Below, piece after piece: positions 29,882-43,864 of a DNA stretch of 64,000 bases. Each line of letters begins with the position of its first letter. The first letter of the stretch is position 1. The notes beneath the pieces are model-generated. The model saw only the letters and a list, made by a program, of their open reading frames with translations, did not search any database and was not told where the DNA came from. Location: assembly GCF_036250675.1 (NCBI RefSeq), contig NZ_CP109592.1, positions 5,642,001 through 5,706,000 on the forward strand. The letters run 5' to 3'. A program made the translations under genes and the position numbers. The DNA is from Streptomyces sp. NBC_01689. Its GTDB lineage: Bacteria; Actinomycetota; Actinomycetes; Streptomycetales; Streptomycetaceae.

Positions 29882-30352
29882 CTAGTCGGGCCGCTGCCCC
29901 GAACCGCGCTGAGCCAGCAGGGCGTCGCGGATCTCCTTGAGCACCTCCAGCTCGGACACCTCGATGATCTCCTGCGTGCCCTCCTTCGCCTTCTGGCGGG
30001 CCGCCTGCCGGGCGAGGAACTTCGACATCGGCAGGACCATCAGGAAGTAGACGACTGCCGCGGTGATCACGAAGCTGAGCGTGGCGCCCAGCACCGAGCC
30101 CCACAGGATGCGGACGCCCGTGGCGGTGTCCCCGGTGCCCTGGCACGGCTTCTTCAGACAGTAGCTGTAACTGTCCAGGTTCTTCGTGCCGATCGCACCG
30201 ACCAGCGGGTTGATGATGCCCTTCACCACCGAGTTGACGATATTGGTGAAGGCCGCTCCGATGACCACCGCGACGGCCAGATCGATGACATTGCCCCGCA
30301 TGAGGAAGGCCTTGAAGCCTTCCCAGACGCCGGGTTGCTGCTTCTCGCTCAC
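29882..30352 (-). CDS. mscL: Large-conductance mechanosensitive channel MscL
   Basis: This 156-residue protein forms the pentameric emergency-release channel that opens under membrane tension. The N-terminal helix and TM1 are FKAFLMRGNVIDLAVAVVIG with the gate-forming GAAF. TM2 is GATLSFVITAAVVYFLMVLP. The C-terminal bundle has KEIRDAL. The periplasmic loop is long and holds two cysteines (SYCLKKPCQG), unlike E. coli MscL. The GTG at 30352 (GTG AGC GAG) has AGGGG 7 bases upstream and is preferred over the GTG at 30370. Confidence 0.95.
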   Translation of the reverse strand: MSEKQQPGVWEGFKAFLMRGNVIDLAVAVVIGAAFTNIVNSVVKGIINPLVGAIGTKNLDSYSYCLKKPCQGTGDTATGVRILWGSVLGATLSFVITAAVVYFLMVLPMSKFLARQAARQKAKEGTQEIIEVSELEVLKEIRDALLAQRGSGQRPD

Positions 30353-30478
30353 CAAGAGGCCCCTCTGCACAGGTTGTGGAACAAACAGCTCCGCAACCTA
30401 CGCGAGGGCATGCCGGAGCTGTTCCCTCACCTACCTCCGGAACGGGACTTGACACCCATTCGATATCGGGCGGAGTCC

Positions 30479-32481: not shown

Positions 32482-32814
32482 CTACGCGGCGGAGCTGCTG
32501 GACGAACCGCTGCCCGACGACGAGCCGCCGCTCGACGACTTCGACTCCGAGGACGACGAGGACGTCGACGACGAAGAAGAAGCGGACGACGCCGAGGTCG
32601 TCGACGGCTTGGACGCCGGCGAGCTGGTCGACGAGGAGCCACGGCTGTCATTGCGGTAGAAGCCGGAGCCCTTGAAGACAATGCCGACGGCCGAGAACAC
32701 CTTCTTCAGGCGGCCACCGCAGTTGGGGCACTCGGTCAGGGCATCGTCGGTGAACTTCTGCACCGCCTCGAGGCCCTCGCCGCACTCGGTGCACTGGTAC
32801 TGGTAGGTCGGCAC
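32482..32814 (-). CDS. ruc: FmdB zinc-ribbon protein, Ruc-type redox chaperone candidate
   Basis: The 110-residue protein has an FmdB zinc ribbon at residues 1-36 (CTECG and CPNCG, four Cys) followed by a long disordered tail of almost only Ser, Thr, Ala and Lys. This is the layout of M. tuberculosis Rv0991c (Ruc), described as a redox-regulated holdase whose zinc cysteines switch with oxidation. The neighbours agree: in mycobacteria it also lies near mscL, 5-formyl-THF cyclo-ligase, galU, moeA1 and rimJ. The GTG at 32814 follows AGGAGGAAGACAA. A CIRCE element lies between promoter and start, so HrcA heat-shock control is expected. The function is inferred from the mycobacterial protein. Confidence 0.8.
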   Translation of the reverse strand: MPTYQYQCTECGEGLEAVQKFTDDALTECPNCGGRLKKVFSAVGIVFKGSGFYRNDSRGSSSTSSPASKPSTTSASSASSSSSTSSSSSESKSSSGGSSSGSGSSSSSAA

Positions 32815-32825
32815 TTGTCTTCCTC

Positions 32826-32852
32826 CTGGCACTCTCACTCAGTGAGTGCTAA
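32826..32852 (-). promoter_or_regulatory. CIRCE element (HrcA operator)
   Basis: CTGGCACTC, nine bases, GAGTGCTAA on the plus strand matches the CIRCE consensus TTAGCACTC-N9-GAGTGCTAA at 16 of 18 positions, one arm being perfect. It lies 12 bp upstream of the ruc start codon and just downstream of the predicted -10, where HrcA normally represses groESL. Confidence 0.85.
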
Positions 32853-32861
32853 CGACGGTCC

Positions 32862-32890
32862 ATACTGACGTATTCCGAGAGATCAGTCCA
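32862..32890 (-). promoter_or_regulatory. Predicted promoter of the ruc gene
   Basis: On the minus strand TGGACT (32890-32885), 17 bases and CAGTAT (32867-32862) suit a housekeeping promoter. Its start point would fall near the first arm of the CIRCE element. The -35 overlaps the end of the MFS gene upstream. Confidence 0.55.
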
Positions 32891-36318: not shown

Positions 36319-39090
36319 ATGCCCCCGAACACCACCGCCTCTTCCGGCCAAAAGCCCGGCAAGTCCGGCAGGAAGAAGGGGCGCCGCGCCCGTCTGATCC
36401 TGATCGTCCTGGTTCTGGCCCTGATCGGGGGCGTGGCCTACGGGGGGTACTGGGGAGTCAGCACCGTCCGGGCCTCCTTCCCGCAGACCAAGGGCTCGCT
36501 CACGCTCGAAGGGCTCTCCGGGCCCGTCGACGTGAAGCGGGACGGCTACGGGATCCCGCAGATCTACGCGTCCTCCGACGCGGACCTGTTCATGGCCCAG
36601 GGCTACGTCCAGGCGCAGGACCGGTTCTACGAGATGGACGTGCGCCGGCACATGACCTCGGGCCGGCTGTCCGAGATGTTCGGCAAGGGCCAGGTCAAGA
36701 ACGACGAGTTCCTGCGCACCCTGGGCTGGAACCGGGTCGCCCAGCGGGAGTACGACGCCAAGCTGTCGGCCTCCACGAAGAAGTACCTGCAGGCGTACGC
36801 CAAGGGAGTCAACGCCTACCTGAAGGGCAAGGACGGCAAGGACATCTCCCTGGAGTACGCGGCCCTCGGTCTCACCAACGACTACAAGCCCGAGCAGTGG
36901 ACCCCGGTCGACTCGGTGGCCTGGCTCAAGGCAATGGCCTGGGACCTGCGCGGCAACATGCAGGAGGAGATCGACCGCTCCCTGATGACCAGCCGTCTGG
37001 GCCCGAAGCAGATCGCCGACCTGTACCCGGAGTACCCGTACGACCGGAACAAGGCGATCACGCAGGAGGGCGCGTACGACAGCGTCACGCAGTCGTACGT
37101 CCAGAAGGGGGCGCAGACCTCCGGGAGCACCGGGGGGTCGGGCGCGGGCACCGGACTGGCCGGGAACACGACGGCGCCGGACGGGCTGCAGAGCCAGCTC
37201 TCCAAGCTCTACGACGTCCTCGACGACGTGCCCACGGCCGTCGGCGTCAACGGCAACGGCATCGGCTCCAACTCGTGGGTCGTGGCGGGCGACCGCACCA
37301 TCACGGGCAAGCCGCTGCTCGCCAACGACCCGCACCTGTCGGCCTCGCTGCCCTCGGTCTGGTACCAGATGGGCCTGCACTGCACCGCGGTCTCCAGCAA
37401 GTGCCAGTACGACGTCTCGGGGTACACCTTCGCCGGTATGCCCGGCGTGATAATCGGCCACAACCAGAACATCGCCTGGGGCATGACCAACTCCGGGGTC
37501 GACGTCACGGACCTGTACCTGGAGAAGATCACCGGCGCCGGCTACCAGTTCGACGGCAAGGTGCTGCCCTTCACCACCCGCAAGGAGACGATCAAGATCG
37601 CGGGCGGTGGCAGCAAGACGATCGTCGTGCGCACCACCAACAACGGGCCGCTGCTGTCCGACCGCGACGACGAACTGGTCAAGGTCGGCAAGAAGGCGAC
37701 CGTCGACGCGGCGGCCCCCGACCGCGGCGACGGCTACGCGATCGCGCTGCGCTGGACCGCTCTGGACCCGGGCACCTCCATGGACGCCGTCTTCCGGCTC
37801 GACAAGGCGTCGGGCTGGGACGAGTTCCGCAAGGCGGCCGAGTCCTTCGAGGTCCCCTCGCAGAACCTGGTCTACGCCGACGGCAAGGGCGCCAAGGGCC
37901 ACATCGGCTACCAGCTGCCGGGCAAGATCCCGACCCGCGCCAAGGGCGACGACGGTTCGCTGCCCTCGCCCGGCTGGGACTCCAAGTACCGGTGGACCGG
38001 CTACATCAAGCAGTCCGAACTGCCCTACGAGTTCGACCCGGGGCGCGGCTACATCGTCACCGCCAACCAGGCCGTCGTCGACAAGGACAAGTACCCCTAC
38101 ACGCTCACCACGGACTGGGGCTACGGCGCGCGCAGCCAGCGGATCACCGATCTGATCAAGACGAAGACCGACGGCGGCGGCAAGATGTCGACCGACGACA
38201 TGCGGCAGATGCAGCTGGACAACAGCAGCGAGATCGCGAAGCTGATCGTGCCGAAGCTGCTCAAGCTGGACATCGCCGACAAGAACGTCCGCCAGGCGCA
38301 GAAGCTCCTGGAGGGCTGGGACTACACCCAGGACGCGGACTCCGCGGCGGCCGCGTACTTCAACGCGGTCTGGCGCAACATCCTCAAGCTCGCCTTCGGC
38401 AACAAGCTGCCCAAGGAGCTGCGGGTCAAGGGCCAGTGCCTGTACGTCGACCCGGTCGACACCACGGGTCCCGCGGACGACGACCGCAAGGTCGTCGAGT
38501 GCGGTCAGCGCGACGCCGACCAGGCGCAGCCGGACGGCGGCGACCGCTGGTTCGAGGTGGTCCGCAACATCATCGACGACGAGCACAACGACTGGTGGAA
38601 GGCGCCCAAGACGCGTCTCGACAAGGCGATCGACACCCGCGACGGGCTCTTCGCGCGGGCCATGAAGGACGCCCGGTGGGAGCTGACCGCCAAGCTCGGC
38701 AAGGACCTCGACAGCTGGAGCTGGGGCCGGCTGCACCGCCTGTTCCTGAAGAACCAGACCCTGGGCACCGAGGGCCCGTCCTTCCTGAAGTACATGCTCA
38801 ACCGCGGCCCCTGGAAGCTCAGCGGCGGCGAGGCGACGGTCAACGCGACCGGCTGGAACGCCGCGGGCGGCTACGGAGTGGTCTGGGTGCCGTCCATGCG
38901 GATGGTGGTCAACCTCGACGACCTCGACAAGTCGAAGTGGATCAACCTCTCCGGAGCGTCCGGGCACGCCTACAGCGCCCACTACACCGACCAGACGGAC
39001 AAGTGGGCGAAGGGCGAGCTGCTGCCCTGGGCCTTCTCGGCCAAGGCGGTCGACGAGAGCACGAGCGACACCCTGGTGCTCAAGCCATGA
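36319..39090 (+). CDS. Penicillin acylase family protein
   Basis: This 923-residue Ntn-hydrolase is anchored by one N-terminal transmembrane segment (residues 25-45, LILIVLVLALIGGVAYGGYW) and acts outside the membrane. The alpha chain precedes an autocleavage site at Gly316-Ser317 in GIGSNSWVVAG. Ser317 becomes the N-terminal nucleophile. NDPHLSASLPSVWYQ follows as in all family members. Some relatives hydrolyse beta-lactam side chains and others acyl-homoserine lactones; the substrate here is unknown. The ATG at 36319 fits. The upstream gap carries two copies of CTTGACGCT 11 bp apart (36167 and 36178). Confidence 0.93.
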   Translation: MPPNTTASSGQKPGKSGRKKGRRARLILIVLVLALIGGVAYGGYWGVSTVRASFPQTKGSLTLEGLSGPVDVKRDGYGIPQIYASSDADLFMAQGYVQAQDRFYEMDVRRHMTSGRLSEMFGKGQVKNDEFLRTLGWNRVAQREYDAKLSASTKKYLQAYAKGVNAYLKGKDGKDISLEYAALGLTNDYKPEQWTPVDSVAWLKAMAWDLRGNMQEEIDRSLMTSRLGPKQIADLYPEYPYDRNKAITQEGAYDSVTQSYVQKGAQTSGSTGGSGAGTGLAGNTTAPDGLQSQLSKLYDVLDDVPTAVGVNGNGIGSNSWVVAGDRTITGKPLLANDPHLSASLPSVWYQMGLHCTAVSSKCQYDVSGYTFAGMPGVIIGHNQNIAWGMTNSGVDVTDLYLEKITGAGYQFDGKVLPFTTRKETIKIAGGGSKTIVVRTTNNGPLLSDRDDELVKVGKKATVDAAAPDRGDGYAIALRWTALDPGTSMDAVFRLDKASGWDEFRKAAESFEVPSQNLVYADGKGAKGHIGYQLPGKIPTRAKGDDGSLPSPGWDSKYRWTGYIKQSELPYEFDPGRGYIVTANQAVVDKDKYPYTLTTDWGYGARSQRITDLIKTKTDGGGKMSTDDMRQMQLDNSSEIAKLIVPKLLKLDIADKNVRQAQKLLEGWDYTQDADSAAAAYFNAVWRNILKLAFGNKLPKELRVKGQCLYVDPVDTTGPADDDRKVVECGQRDADQAQPDGGDRWFEVVRNIIDDEHNDWWKAPKTRLDKAIDTRDGLFARAMKDARWELTAKLGKDLDSWSWGRLHRLFLKNQTLGTEGPSFLKYMLNRGPWKLSGGEATVNATGWNAAGGYGVVWVPSMRMVVNLDDLDKSKWINLSGASGHAYSAHYTDQTDKWAKGELLPWAFSAKAVDESTSDTLVLKP

Positions 39091-39182: not shown

Positions 39183-39797
39183 TCATCGGAAGCGGCGTAC
39201 CCCCGAAGGCGTCACCACCGCGTGCACCGGACGGTCGTGCGGCTCGCGCGGCACGTCGTCCACGACCTCGGTGTCGTACAGGAGCACCACCAGGGCCGGA
39301 TCCGATCCCGCGCGCTCCAGGCGGGCCAGTACGCGGTCGTAGGAGCCGCCCCCGCGCCCCAGCCGCAGTCCGTGCCGGTCCACCGCGAGGCCGGGCAGCA
39401 GGACGGTGTCGGCCGCCAGTACGGCCCCGGGGCCCAGGCGTTCACCAGCGGGCTCCAAGAGGGCCATCCGCCCGCCGTGTCGGACACGGGTCAGCGAGCC
39501 CCCGCCCGCGTACGCGCCCCAGTCCAGGTCGTCGTCGGCCATGAGGACCGGCAACAGGACGCGTACGCCCCGGGCGTGCAGCGCGTCCAGGAGCGCGAGG
39601 GTGCCCGGCTCGCTCCCCACGGAGACGTACGCCGCGACGGTGCGCGCCCGCGCCAACTCGGGAAGCTCCAGCGCGCGCACGGCCAGCGCTTCGGCCGTCT
39701 CCCGCAGGTCACCGGCTGTCAACCTGCTTCTCACCGCGAGGAATCCCTGACGCAACATTCGCTTGTCAGGCTCTGCCTCACGTCCGACGTGGTTCAT
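39183..39797 (-). CDS. 5-formyltetrahydrofolate cyclo-ligase
   Basis: This 204-residue enzyme converts 5-formyl-THF with ATP to 5,10-methenyl-THF. The substrate and ATP sites are visible as KRMLRQGFLAVR near the N-terminus, AYVSVGSEPGTLALLDAL, VLLPGLAVDRHGLRLGRGGG (the main signature) and YDRVLARL. The ATG at 39797 follows GGGAGCG with good spacing. It is divergent from galU, and the shared gap contains the palindrome CTCATATGAG at 39825-39834. The same divergent pair occurs in mycobacteria (Rv0992c and Rv0993). Confidence 0.9.
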   Translation of the reverse strand: MNHVGREAEPDKRMLRQGFLAVRSRLTAGDLRETAEALAVRALELPELARARTVAAYVSVGSEPGTLALLDALHARGVRVLLPVLMADDDLDWGAYAGGGSLTRVRHGGRMALLEPAGERLGPGAVLAADTVLLPGLAVDRHGLRLGRGGGSYDRVLARLERAGSDPALVVLLYDTEVVDDVPREPHDRPVHAVVTPSGVRRFR

Positions 39798-39890
39798 GGA
39801 TCGCTCCCGTTGGTTCTTTATGCGCTCATATGAGAGCCAACTGACCGGAGCCACAGATTCTGCTCATAGCCACCGGATATGGTTACGGGC

Positions 39891-40802
39891 ATGACTGAGT
39901 CGCACCCCAGGATCAGCAAGGCTGTCATCCCCGCAGCGGGCCTCGGCACCCGGTTCCTGCCGGCCACGAAGGCCACTCCCAAGGAGATGCTGCCGGTCGT
40001 CGACAAGCCGGCGATCCAGTACGTGGTCGAAGAGGCCGTGTCGGCGGGTCTCGACGACGTCCTGATGATCACGGGACGCAACAAGCGCCCCCTCGAGGAC
40101 CACTTCGACCGCAACTACGAACTGGAGTCGGCCCTCCAGAAGAAGGGCGACGCGCGCAGGCTCGCCAAGGTCCAGGAGTCCAGCGACCTCGCGACCATGC
40201 ACTACGTGCGCCAGGGCGACCCCAAGGGCCTCGGCCACGCGGTCCTGTGCGCCGCCCCGCACGTCGGCCAGGAACCCTTCGCGGTCCTCCTCGGCGACGA
40301 CCTGATCGACCCCCGGGACCCCCTGCTCGCCCGCATGGTCGAGGTCCAGGAGCGGCACGGCGGCAGCGTCGTCGCGCTCATGGAGGTCGAGCCCGAGCAG
40401 ATCCACCTCTACGGCTCCGCCGCCGTGGAGACCACCGCCGAGAGCGACCTGGTCAAGGTGACCGGCCTGGTCGAGAAGCCGGACCCGGCGGACGCCCCCA
40501 GCAATTACGCGATCATCGGGCGCTACGTCCTCGACCCGCACATCTTCGACATACTGCGCAAGACCGAGCCGGGCCGCGGCGGCGAGATCCAGCTCACCGA
40601 CGCCCTCCAGCAGCTCGCCGCCGACGAGAAGGTCGGCGGCCCGGTGCACGGCGTCGTCTTCAAGGGCCGGCGCTATGACACCGGGGACCGCGGCGACTAT
40701 CTGCGTGCCATTGTCAGACTCGCGTGCGAACGTGAGGACCTGGGCCCGGACTTCCGTGCCTGGCTCCGCAGTTACGTAGCCGAGGAGATGCAGGGATCTT
40801 GA
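39891..40802 (+). CDS. galU: UTP-glucose-1-phosphate uridylyltransferase
   Basis: The 303-residue nucleotidyltransferase makes UDP-glucose. It shows KAVIPAAGLGTRFLPATKA (nucleotide-binding loop), EMLPVVDKPAIQYVVEEA, GLGHAVLCA, LLGDDLID (metal Asp) and VEKP. The product feeds cell-wall glycans, trehalose and galactose metabolism. The ATG at 39891 is 12 bp into the longest frame; a -10-like TATGGT lies just upstream, so the leader is very short. It overlaps the following moeA/glp gene by 4 bp, forming one operon. Confidence 0.95.
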   Translation: MTESHPRISKAVIPAAGLGTRFLPATKATPKEMLPVVDKPAIQYVVEEAVSAGLDDVLMITGRNKRPLEDHFDRNYELESALQKKGDARRLAKVQESSDLATMHYVRQGDPKGLGHAVLCAAPHVGQEPFAVLLGDDLIDPRDPLLARMVEVQERHGGSVVALMEVEPEQIHLYGSAAVETTAESDLVKVTGLVEKPDPADAPSNYAIIGRYVLDPHIFDILRKTEPGRGGEIQLTDALQQLAADEKVGGPVHGVVFKGRRYDTGDRGDYLRAIVRLACEREDLGPDFRAWLRSYVAEEMQGS

Positions 40803-42121
40803 GCAGCGCCGCCGCCCGCCCGACCGGCCAGGACCGCCTCTGGTCGGTGGACGACCACCTGGAGGACATCCTCGCCACCGTCCGCCCCCTCGAACCCATC
40901 GAGCTGCAACTCCTCGACGCCCAGGGCTGCGTCCTGGTCGAGGACGTCACGGTGCCGGTCTCCCTGCCGCCGTTCGACAACAGCTCGATGGACGGGTACG
41001 CGGTGCGGGTCGCGGACGTCTCGGGCGCCGGCGAGGAGTATCCGGCGGTCCTCACCGTCGTCGGCGACGTCGCGGCGGGCGGCGCGGAGCTTCCGCACGT
41101 GGGCCCCGGGCAGGCCGCCCGCATCATGACCGGCGCCCCGCTGCCGCCCGGCGCCGAGGCCGTCGTCCCGGTCGAGTGGACCGACGGGGGACTCGGCGAG
41201 GGCCCGGTCTCCGGGATGCGCGCCCACAGCGCCTCCCCCGAGGGCGCCTCCGGCCAGGTGCGGGTGCACCGCCCGGCGGAGGCGCGCGCCCACGTACGGG
41301 CCGAGGGCAGCGACGTCCGCGCGGGCGACCTCGCCCTTCGCGCGGGCACGATCCTCGGCCCCCCGCAGCTCGGCCTGCTGGCCGCGATCGGCCGCGGCAC
41401 CGTCCGGGTGCGCCCCCGCCCGCGGGTGGTCGTGCTCTCCACCGGCAGCGAACTGGTGCAGCCGGGCGAGCCGTTGGACACCGGCCAGATCTACGACTCC
41501 AACAGCTTCGCCCTGTGCGCCGCCGCCCGCGACGCCGGAGCCATCGGCTACCGGGTGGGCGCCGTCGCCGACGACGCCGAGACCCTCCGCTCCACCATCG
41601 AGGACCAGCTCATCCGCGCCGACCTGCTGGTCACCACCGGCGGCGTCAGCGTCGGCGCGTACGACGTCGTCAAGGAGGCCCTCTCCTCGGTGGGTGACGA
41701 GGACGAGGAGGGCGGCGGCGTGGACTTCCGCACCCTCGCCATGCAGCCCGGCAAGCCCCAGGGCTTCGGCTCCATCGGCCCCGACCACACCCCGCTGCTC
41801 GCCCTGCCGGGCAACCCGGTGTCGTCGTACGTCTCCTTCGAACTGTTCGTCCGCCCCGCGATCCGCACCCTCATGGGCCTGAGCGACGTCCACCGCCCCA
41901 CCGTGCGCGCGACGCTCGACGCCGAAAAGGCGCTGACCTCGCCCTCGGGACGCCGGCAGTTCCTGCGGGGGACGTACACGGACGGCGCGGTGACGCCCGT
42001 CGGCGGCGCCGGGTCCCACCTGGTCGCGGCGCTCGCGCACGCCGACGCGCTGATCGTCGTACCCGAGGACACCACGTCGGTCGAACCCGGCACCGAGGTC
42101 GAAGTGGTCCTGCTCGGCTGA
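40799..42121 (+). CDS. glp: MoeA/gephyrin-like protein, probable division factor Glp
   Basis: The 440-residue protein has the complete MoeA fold: domain with [15 protein letters not shown], the swivel domain with [17 protein letters not shown], the MPT-binding domain with [20 protein letters not shown] and [17 protein letters not shown], and [16 protein letters not shown]. In E. coli MoeA an acidic residue follows GVSVG; here it is Ala. MoeA inserts molybdate into adenylated molybdopterin. However, in Corynebacterium a gephyrin-like Glp in this same galU-rimJ-glpR setting binds FtsZ and a membrane receptor. The sepX/glpR gene two kilobases downstream supports the division role here. A TTG start overlaps galU. 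Both roles are possible. Confidence 0.85.
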
Positions 42122-42240
42122 GCCGAGGCGGTCGTGCCCGGCCGCCCGACCGGGGCCCGGGAGGGTCCTGCCCGGCTGCCCGCCCCGAGTTGGCGGTACC
42201 GTGTCGCGCACAACAGGCCCGACCGGGAGCGCTGCCGCAC

Positions 42241-42720
42241 ATGAGTACGCAGGACCGACTGACCCACATCGACGAGGCGGGCGCCGCCCGCATGGTCGAC
42301 GTCTCCGGGAAGGACGTGACCGCGCGCACCGCCCGCGCCAGCGGCCGGGTCCTGGTCTCCCCCCGTGTGGTCGAACTGCTGCGCGGTGGGGGAGTGCCCA
42401 AGGGCGACGCCCTGGCCACCGCGCGGATCGCGGGCATCATGGGCGCCAAGCGCACCCCGGATCTCATCCCCCTGTGCCACCCGTTGGCGGTGTCGGGTGT
42501 CGAGGTCGGCCTGACCGTCGCGGACGACGCCGTCGAGATCCTCGCGACCGTGCGGACCACCGACCGCACGGGCGTCGAGATGGAGGCGCTCACGGCGGTC
42601 AGCGTGGCCGCCCTCACCGTCATCGACATGGTCAAGGCGGTCGACAAGGCGGCGGTCATCACGGACGTGCGCGTCGAGGAGAAGACCGGCGGGAAGTCGG
42701 GCGACTGGAGCCGGGCATGA
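42241..42720 (+). CDS. moaC: Cyclic pyranopterin monophosphate synthase
   Basis: This 159-residue enzyme works with MoaA in the first step of molybdenum cofactor synthesis. Family blocks are [38 protein letters not shown] and [18 protein letters not shown], with KAVDK before the last helix. The active-site Lys and Asp lie in [13 protein letters not shown]. The ATG at 42241 fits the family length. The gene overlaps mog by 4 bp. Confidence 0.95.
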
Positions 42721-43229: not shown

Positions 43230-43864
43230 ACAGCCCGTCCTGGCCCGTCGAGCTGGCGGACGGCGATGTCGTCCTCCGGCCGATAAAGGTGCGCGACCAG
43301 CGGGCCTGGCGCGAGGTGAACCGGCGCAACCGCGACTGGCTGCGGCCGTGGGAGGCGACCATTCCGCCGCCCACACCCAGCGGGCCGATAGCGCACCGGC
43401 CGACGTACCGGCAGATGGTCCGCCATCTGCGCGCCGAGGCGAACGCGGGCCGCATGCTGCCCTTCGTGATCGAGTACCAGGGCCGTCTGGTGGGTCAGCT
43501 GACCGTCGCCGGGATCACCTGGGGCTCGATGTGCTCGGGGCACGTCGGCTACTGGGTGGACCAGGCGGTGGCCGGACGCGGGGTGATGCCGACGGCCGTG
43601 GCGCTGGCGACCGACCACTGCTTCCGTACGGTCGGACTGCACCGGATCGAGGTGTGCATTCGCCCGGAGAACGGTCCCAGCCGCCGCGTCGTGGAGAAAC
43701 TCGGATTCCGTGAGGAAGGGCTCCGGCCGCGTTATCTCCACATCGACGGGGCCTGGCGCGACCATCTCGTCTTCGCACTCACCGCGGAAGAGGTGCCCGA
43801 AGGGCTTCTCGGACGCTGGCAGCGGGCACGCTCCCAGAACCGGAGCAGGCCGAGTACCCAGTAA
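43226..43864 (+). CDS. rimJ: RimJ/RimL-type GNAT acetyltransferase
   Basis: The 212-residue GNAT protein has the RimJ layout: VVLRPIKVRDQRAWREVNRR at the front, then GHVGYWVDQAVAGRGVMPTA (acetyl-CoA loop), LHRIEVCIRPENGPSRRVVE and KLGFREEGLRPRYLHIDG. Such enzymes acetylate N-termini of ribosomal or other proteins. The real start seems to be CTG at 43226, overlapping the mog stop, since the frame before GTG 43289 already reads like the family (WPVELADGDVVLRP). The gene also precedes GlpR in mycobacteria and corynebacteria, so its place here is ancestral. Confidence 0.85.
   Translation: MNSPSWPVELADGDVVLRPIKVRDQRAWREVNRRNRDWLRPWEATIPPPTPSGPIAHRPTYRQMVRHLRAEANAGRMLPFVIEYQGRLVGQLTVAGITWGSMCSGHVGYWVDQAVAGRGVMPTAVALATDHCFRTVGLHRIEVCIRPENGPSRRVVEKLGFREEGLRPRYLHIDGAWRDHLVFALTAEEVPEGLLGRWQRARSQNRSRPSTQ

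Follow-up and report, generated by a model that had tools for sequence, protein, structure and literature searches.

The closest described counterpart of the gene considered here is Ruc (Rv0991c) of Mycobacterium tuberculosis, reported in 2020. In that report, Ruc is a redox-regulated chaperone whose gene is repressed by HrcA and induced by SigH through overlapping SigH and HrcA sites; its four cysteines bind zinc, it acts as a holdase when oxidised or zinc-free and has little such activity when reduced, its C-terminal tail is required, and it aids refolding by DnaK (PMC7448276). According to the same source, a ruc null mutant has no strong virulence defect, and the gene is not indispensable for withstanding several oxidants (PMC7448276). 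Other papers list Rv0991c in a table of SigH-dependent genes at 40.3 +/- 12.2 (PMC4803200), cite Stewart et al. 2002 for its control by HrcA (PMC8223512), and include an FmdB-family gene of M. intracellulare, with values of 3.44 and 2.16, beside groEL and groES in a list of genes that change in acid stress as well as in oxidative stress (PMC11022373). The consensus for M. tuberculosis SigH is GGAAYR-N17-GTT (PMC4803200), and that for Streptomyces coelicolor SigR is GGAATN18GTT (PMC2375139, citing Paget et al.). Hsp33 is likewise a redox-activated Cys4 zinc holdase, off when zinc-bound and on when oxidised, as in the model for Ruc; however, it has no sequence relation to Ruc according to PMC7448276, and the FmdB protein described below is not an Hsp33 member. 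Within the openly available literature, outside which most subscription papers lie, we found no text joining FmdB with HrcA, nor, looking by gene name, any published Streptomyces expression or HrcA-binding data for the fmdB gene.

The gene in question lies at 32482..32814 on the minus strand of a 64,000-nucleotide stretch of the Streptomyces sp. NBC_01689 chromosome (the window), with a GTG start at 32814 and a product of 110 residues. We consider it likely that this is the Streptomyces orthologue of Ruc, encoding an oxidation-activated holdase behind a two-input HrcA/SigR promoter; the kind is thus already known, and the Streptomyces gene can fairly be labelled a new member of it. The protein matches both the Pfam Zn_ribbon_8 profile (PF09723; 58 bits against a cut-off of 34.4) and the NCBIfam FmdB family (TIGR02605; 75 bits against 31.3), which bears out the original prediction of an FmdB zinc-ribbon protein with a Ser-rich tail. 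Its ribbon, C8-X2-C11-N17-C29-X2-C32, fits the N-terminal Cys4 ribbon of about 50 residues typical of the Ruc/FmdB family and has its cysteines at the same residue numbers as those of the M. tuberculosis protein. These four cysteines are invariant across 18 aligned FmdB-type proteins, as are the columns of a VFKGSGFYRNDSR motif. Beyond residue 55 the protein is mostly Ser, in a tail some 52 residues long, where the family is characterised by a hydrophilic C-terminal region of roughly 7-61 residues without secondary structure. The median Ser fraction of this tail is 0.59 over 31 proteins of the genus, the window's included, and the tails of the mycobacterial relatives that were read are Ser-rich too; it is the composition that is kept and not the sequence, and from that composition the tail is probably disordered. 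A profile search of the PDB with the protein returned nothing resembling a relative of Ruc, the matches being four zinc fingers and one TRAP inhibitor with E-values up to 0.1. The same chromosome encodes a second FmdB-type protein (L012, G000:C1:6660369-6660488), of 78 residues with a Gly/Cys-rich tail; we set it aside as a member of the system, the best CIRCE score within 300 nt upstream of it being 10 of 18.

The genomic context is also shared with mycobacteria, as had been proposed for mscL, cyclo-ligase, galU, moeA1 and rimJ. The order in the window is mscL (29885..30370, minus strand; PF01741), a SAF/RcpC-like gene (20.3 bits, below the cut-off), MTAP, fmdB, an MFS gene, an NhaP-type gene, a large penicillin-amidase family gene (36319-39087, on the strand opposite to fmdB), 5-formyltetrahydrofolate cyclo-ligase (39186..39854, minus strand; PF01812), a galU-type gene (39879-40799), moeA (40799-42118), moaC (42190-42717) and a GNAT/rimJ-type gene (43289-43861). 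In M. interjectum (L259), from which the mycobacterial order was taken, it is GNAT, moeA, galU-type, cyclo-ligase, fmdB, SAF, mscL, MoCF and an HtrA-like gene. The two arrangements hence have the cyclo-ligase, galU-type, moeA, GNAT and mscL genes in common, and differ in the MTAP, MFS, NhaP-type and amidase genes interposed in Streptomyces.

By orthology with Ruc, the Streptomyces protein should possess chaperone activity. Alternatively, it might be a zinc-ribbon regulator, or a metal or ribosome accessory, that is merely co-induced with chaperones and has no holdase activity of its own. An FmdB record carries the name 'putative regulatory protein' in PMC11022373, conservation across the alignment of 18 proteins is much stronger in the ribbon than in the tail, and the penicillin amidase gene is situated nearby. 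However, the cysteine positions, the type of tail, the regulatory sites detailed below and the neighbours all match those of a protein with demonstrated oxidation-dependent holdase activity, and the amidase gene, encoded on the opposite strand, is separated from fmdB by two genes and absent among the ten genes scanned beside fmdB of M. interjectum. We therefore regard such a purely regulatory or accessory role as unlikely.

The putative HrcA site upstream of the gene, a CIRCE operator that had been predicted to agree with the consensus at 16 of 18 positions, was located at 32826..32852 on the minus strand (TTAGCACTC-ACTGAGTGA-GAGTGCCAG), ending 11 nt before the GTG start. Scored against TTAGCACTC-N9-GAGTGCTAA, with 18 arm positions, it agrees at 16 and is the sole match in the 64 kb at up to three mismatches, with none in 100 dinucleotide shuffles. 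The left arm, TTAGCACTC (32844..32852, minus strand), is invariant in all 88 upstream regions of the genus that were compared. The right arm runs into the Shine-Dalgarno sequence (CCAGGAGGA), which we read as AGGAGGA at 32821..32827 (minus strand), its first two bases being the last two of the arm. It is plausible that the two departures from the consensus, both in the right arm, arise because this arm ends in the Shine-Dalgarno sequence. The spacer, ACTGAGTGA (32835..32843, minus strand), has a genus form of roughly AYYGAGTGA from column counts, GAGT being present in 80-84 of the 88 regions per column. This conserved spacer amounts to an extra GAGTG half-site placed 3 nt from the left arm, for which RNA folding offers no explanation. 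An HspR (HAIR) half-site in it was considered and rejected, by eye only, on finding TCGAGT in many relatives where TTGAGT is needed. The spacer of the first groES CIRCE is conserved too and contains TTGACC or TTGACT, which resembles a -35 element.

In the whole genome (9.96 Mb), which encodes a single HrcA (PF01628, 199.2 bits), we counted seven exact cores (GCACTC-N9-GAGTGC): a pair ahead of groES, one each ahead of groEL2, hrcA-dnaJ and fmdB, and two within unrelated ORFs. The latter (dehydrogenase-like and TetR-like by eye) were treated as chance, as were the other genomic CIRCE-like matches, the genome-wide count at up to one mismatch being 39 against 40 in a reversed control; groEL2 has, beyond its exact CIRCE, a second one with a mismatch. 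The presence of the operator at fmdB, groES, groEL2 and hrcA-dnaJ in one genome constitutes a regulatory link of fmdB to the chaperone genes. The fmdB operator shares its core with the rest of the Streptomyces HrcA/CIRCE regulon (groES-groEL1 and groEL2) but differs in being a single CIRCE that adjoins the Shine-Dalgarno sequence and is fused to a SigR-type promoter, a motif that the three other CIRCE operons lack: none was found on the coding strand at the CIRCE of the groES, groEL2 and hrcA loci of this genome. Among 15 groES upstream regions of the genus, one (L228) has a match to the SigR motif, well upstream of its CIRCEs. The same pattern searches gave mirrored matches at the two ends of the chromosome (G000:C1; 61164, 90741 and 130858; 9778820, 9818937 and 9848514), which suggests that it has terminal inverted repeats about 131 kb long or longer.

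The original prediction placed CIRCE between a predicted promoter and the start. A degenerate and weak candidate for a housekeeping promoter, TGGACT-N17-CAGTAT (32862..32890, minus strand), does lie upstream, with conserved columns and overlapping the end of the MFS gene; a sigma-70 promoter scan upstream of the gene reported no site. A better promoter, which had gone unremarked, overlaps CIRCE itself: GGAATA-N17-GTT at 32876-32851 is an exact GGAAT-N18-GTT, the SigR/SigH consensus. Its -35 element, GGAAT (32872..32876, minus strand), is identical in 83 to 87 of the 88 genus upstream regions per column and agrees with the consensus in PMC2375139 and PMC4803200. Its -10 element, GTT (32851..32853, minus strand), is placed 18 nt from GGAAT and consists of a G followed by the first two bases of the CIRCE left arm (G + TTAGCACTC), so that two of its three bases are shared with the operator. 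The fmdB promoter is thus like those of the S. coelicolor SigR regulon in its exact consensus and 18-nt spacing (PMC2375139), and differs from them in having its -10 inside an HrcA operator. The genome also encodes the cognate machinery, with sigR (TIGR02947, 358.4 bits) adjoining rsrA (TIGR03988, 102.7 bits). The earlier suggestion of an oxidation-responsive gene accordingly gains cis evidence of its own, in the form of a SigR-type promoter overlapping CIRCE in a genome with both SigR and RsrA.

A first scan of relatives found the SigR motif in 29 of 30 fetched upstream regions as well as in the window. Over the 88 regions of the genus, which are related to each other and not independent events, it is present in 84, against 0.3-0.5% of shuffles, and in 83 of those 84 its offset is identical to that in the window. 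The motif occurs in 30 of the 31 regions chosen by their CIRCE (the window and 30 strict matches) and in 54 of the 57 not so chosen. Moreover, the six columns preceding GGAAT reach at most 61 of 88, compared with the 83 to 87 for GGAAT. The exact motif is missing from four regions, one of which (L152) has GGAAA; in the other three (L024, L081 and L146) the fmdB CIRCE is kept, the sequence further upstream looks replaced and there is no SigR-type -35.

The original prediction hinged on the repeat being conserved upstream of orthologues, and it is indeed kept in 196 of 199 genomes of the genus, in 76 of 93 loci sampled elsewhere in the class, and in 77 of the best 80 of 591 named loci. The 196 are all the genus genomes in which the gene was found, the three without a hit by protein search being G001 (79% complete), G032 (99%) and G050 (82%). 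A strict pattern, requiring the exact CIRCE core 5-35 nt before an FmdB start, matched 138 of the 199 (reversed control, 0), and protein search recovered the gene in 58 of the 61 misses. The 56 of these whose upstream regions were read, a reading that also took in G551 from the class sample, all have a CIRCE at 16 of 18. For the two left over, G056 and G088, both the fused-element pattern and the strict one used in the phylum scan gave a match. The strict-pattern misses hence seem to stem from codon choice in the start region rather than from loss of the operator.

Confining the proposal to Streptomyces proved too narrow, with the operator present in most of the class families sampled and in some phylum genomes outside the class. 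FmdB-type genes are found in 168 of 178 class genomes, a near-universal distribution; yet the chaperone activity reported in the literature consulted comes from one pathogen (PMC7448276). One upstream region per genome was taken from 94 genomes outside the genus, of which one (L118) had no recognised start, leaving the 93 loci. The 76 with CIRCE score at least 14 of 18 and span 29 of 34 families and 60 of 72 genera, while the other 17 score 8-11; shuffles of these 93 regions never rose above 13, and over all shuffled upstream regions 14 was reached once in 1810. A strict phylum scan, which is a lower bound in that reading of the class upstream regions finds many more, matched 18 of 296 genomes: 9 of 9 in the genus, 2 of 17 in the rest of the class and 7 of 270 outside the class, with none in the reversed control. 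The named set, the best 80 of 591 loci from a mycobacterial query and mostly from Mycobacterium, Nocardia and relatives, has CIRCE at 13 of 18 or better in its 77 when N8-N10 spacers are allowed and in 75 with N9 alone, together with a sigma motif in 55.

The SigR motif has a more restricted distribution than the operator. It is present in 11 of the 93 class loci outside the genus, all 11 with CIRCE, leaving 65 of the 76 CIRCE-bearing loci without it; 6 of the 11 have it either abutting CIRCE, at 3 or 7 nt, or with the -35 placed inside the spacer, and the other 5 have it 18-76 nt ahead of the operator. Because most CIRCE-bearing loci lack the motif and only these six have it against or inside the operator, oxidation control at the promoter is not general. 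In the named set, again as the best 80 of 591, the register, counted from the first base of GTT to the left arm of CIRCE, is constant inside lineages and different between them. It is 1 in Nocardia (11/11) and Rhodococcus (5/5), the same as in Streptomyces, 3 in Mycobacterium (17/21, with one at 2 and three without the motif), Mycolicibacterium (6/6) and Mycolicibacter (4/4), and 7 in Pseudonocardia (2/3); in Gordonia (4/4) the -35 GGAAT falls within the CIRCE spacer with the -10 downstream, and Saccharothrix, Amycolatopsis and Nocardioides (8/8 together) have CIRCE without a sigma motif. Set beside M. tuberculosis ruc, the Streptomyces gene has the same pair of overlapping sites before its start, but its GTT begins 1 nt before the left arm instead of the 3 nt of most Mycobacterium loci, and the left half of its operator is GCACTC instead of the GCACTT of most mycobacteria read, both among the best 80 of 591. 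These register differences may reflect independent assembly; drift of an old element is another reading.

Further evidence comes from a class-wide scan for the fused element made without requiring FmdB, which found it in 67 of 394 genomes. Of these, 39 are from the 40 genus genomes, each with a single match, and 28 are spread over nine further genera; the reversed control gave none. The 28 loci fetched outside the genus do not include two more matches from those genomes. Their downstream genes were confirmed by Pfam in seven cases and otherwise identified by eye; they comprise 20 before groEL, 1 before groES, 5 before hsp20, 1 before fmdB, and L044, which lies between groES and groEL with its sigma match in the wrong orientation. 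In the genus the downstream gene was read as fmdB in L072 and L073, and the other matches, not all of which were followed, have fmdB-type sequence. Where followed, then, the fused element marks chaperone genes and fmdB. We put at about even the chance that actinomycetes have repeatedly fused an HrcA operator with a SigR/SigH promoter at chaperone genes (fmdB, groEL and hsp20), with lineage-specific overlap, giving a coincidence gate, reached by convergence, that responds to oxidation together with misfolding and has fmdB/ruc as one of its main clients. Specialists may not expect the two sites to be fused in such a lineage-specific manner. The hsp20 cases (L045, L046, L069, L070 and L071) have a fused GGAA-N-GTT/CIRCE and come from four other families. 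The groEL cases of L048 and L050-L068 belong to small-genome actinomycetes (family f25, 1.3-1.8 Mb), in which the four fmdB upstream regions read are all without CIRCE.

These distributions bear on a rival explanation, in which HrcA alone controls a heat-shock chaperone gene and GGAAT-N18-GTT is incidental and unused by SigR. It would accommodate the many class loci that have CIRCE and no motif, and the partial coincidence of GTT with a constrained CIRCE arm. It fits poorly with the conservation of the -35 GGAAT in its own right beside variable bases, with the recurrence of the motif at lineage-fixed positions in Mycobacterium, Nocardia, Rhodococcus and Gordonia (among the best 80 of 591), and with the SigH dependence of M. 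tuberculosis ruc in PMC4803200; we accordingly hold it to be improbable. That the inverted repeat acts mainly in RNA, forming a hairpin or thermometer in the 5' UTR close to the Shine-Dalgarno sequence, is very improbable. In its favour are the position of the repeat, downstream of the likely start site and ahead of the Shine-Dalgarno sequence, its ability to pair and its conserved spacer bases; but its predicted folding is no better than that of shuffles (z 0.39; 120 of 200 as good), and some other lineages have a CIRCE that begins 80-136 nt ahead of the gene.

Regulation of fmdB by both HrcA and SigR is well supported by sequence, and the binding, occlusion, induction, zinc release and holdase activity proposed for the Streptomyces system can be put together as follows. 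In a reducing cytoplasm the zinc ribbon would keep Ruc off. The activity of HrcA depends on GroEL, and while GroEL capacity is ample HrcA on CIRCE would cover the -10 and the start region and block transcription. Thiol oxidation would free SigR from RsrA, whereupon SigR would drive the GGAAT-N18-GTT promoter, whose -10 reaches into the CIRCE left arm. Since CIRCE covers the -10 and likely the start, HrcA should dominate at this promoter, and full output would need both SigR activity and release of HrcA; the weak TGGACT-N17-CAGTAT promoter would probably yield a heat-only response. Once its four cysteines are oxidised, the protein would bind unfolded proteins with the help of its putatively disordered tail. 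The combination of a widely kept HrcA operator and a SigR-type promoter in Streptomyces, a harmless and genetically tractable model, makes it directly testable whether FmdB is a general redox chaperone standing in for Hsp33, and the promoter would itself be a natural two-input system worth studying.

The operator at fmdB also shows variation of its own. Two named loci, of M. ahvazicum (L268) and M. montefiorense (L293), have CIRCE arms matching at 18 of 18 with a 10-nt spacer. All 76 class loci that have CIRCE outside the genus share the right half GAGTGC, while the left half is GCAGTC in 36 of them, GCACTC in another 34 and some other variant in the last 6; the GCAGTC form, surveyed over the fmdB upstream regions L104-L133 and L161-L224, is spread over 11 families. 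We found groES in 13 of 15 genomes of the GCAGTC type, and all 13 keep at least one groES CIRCE with GCACTC. The change thus goes with fmdB and not with HrcA sites at large, and GCAGTC has the look of a half-site tuned for this gene in particular, and perhaps a weaker one.
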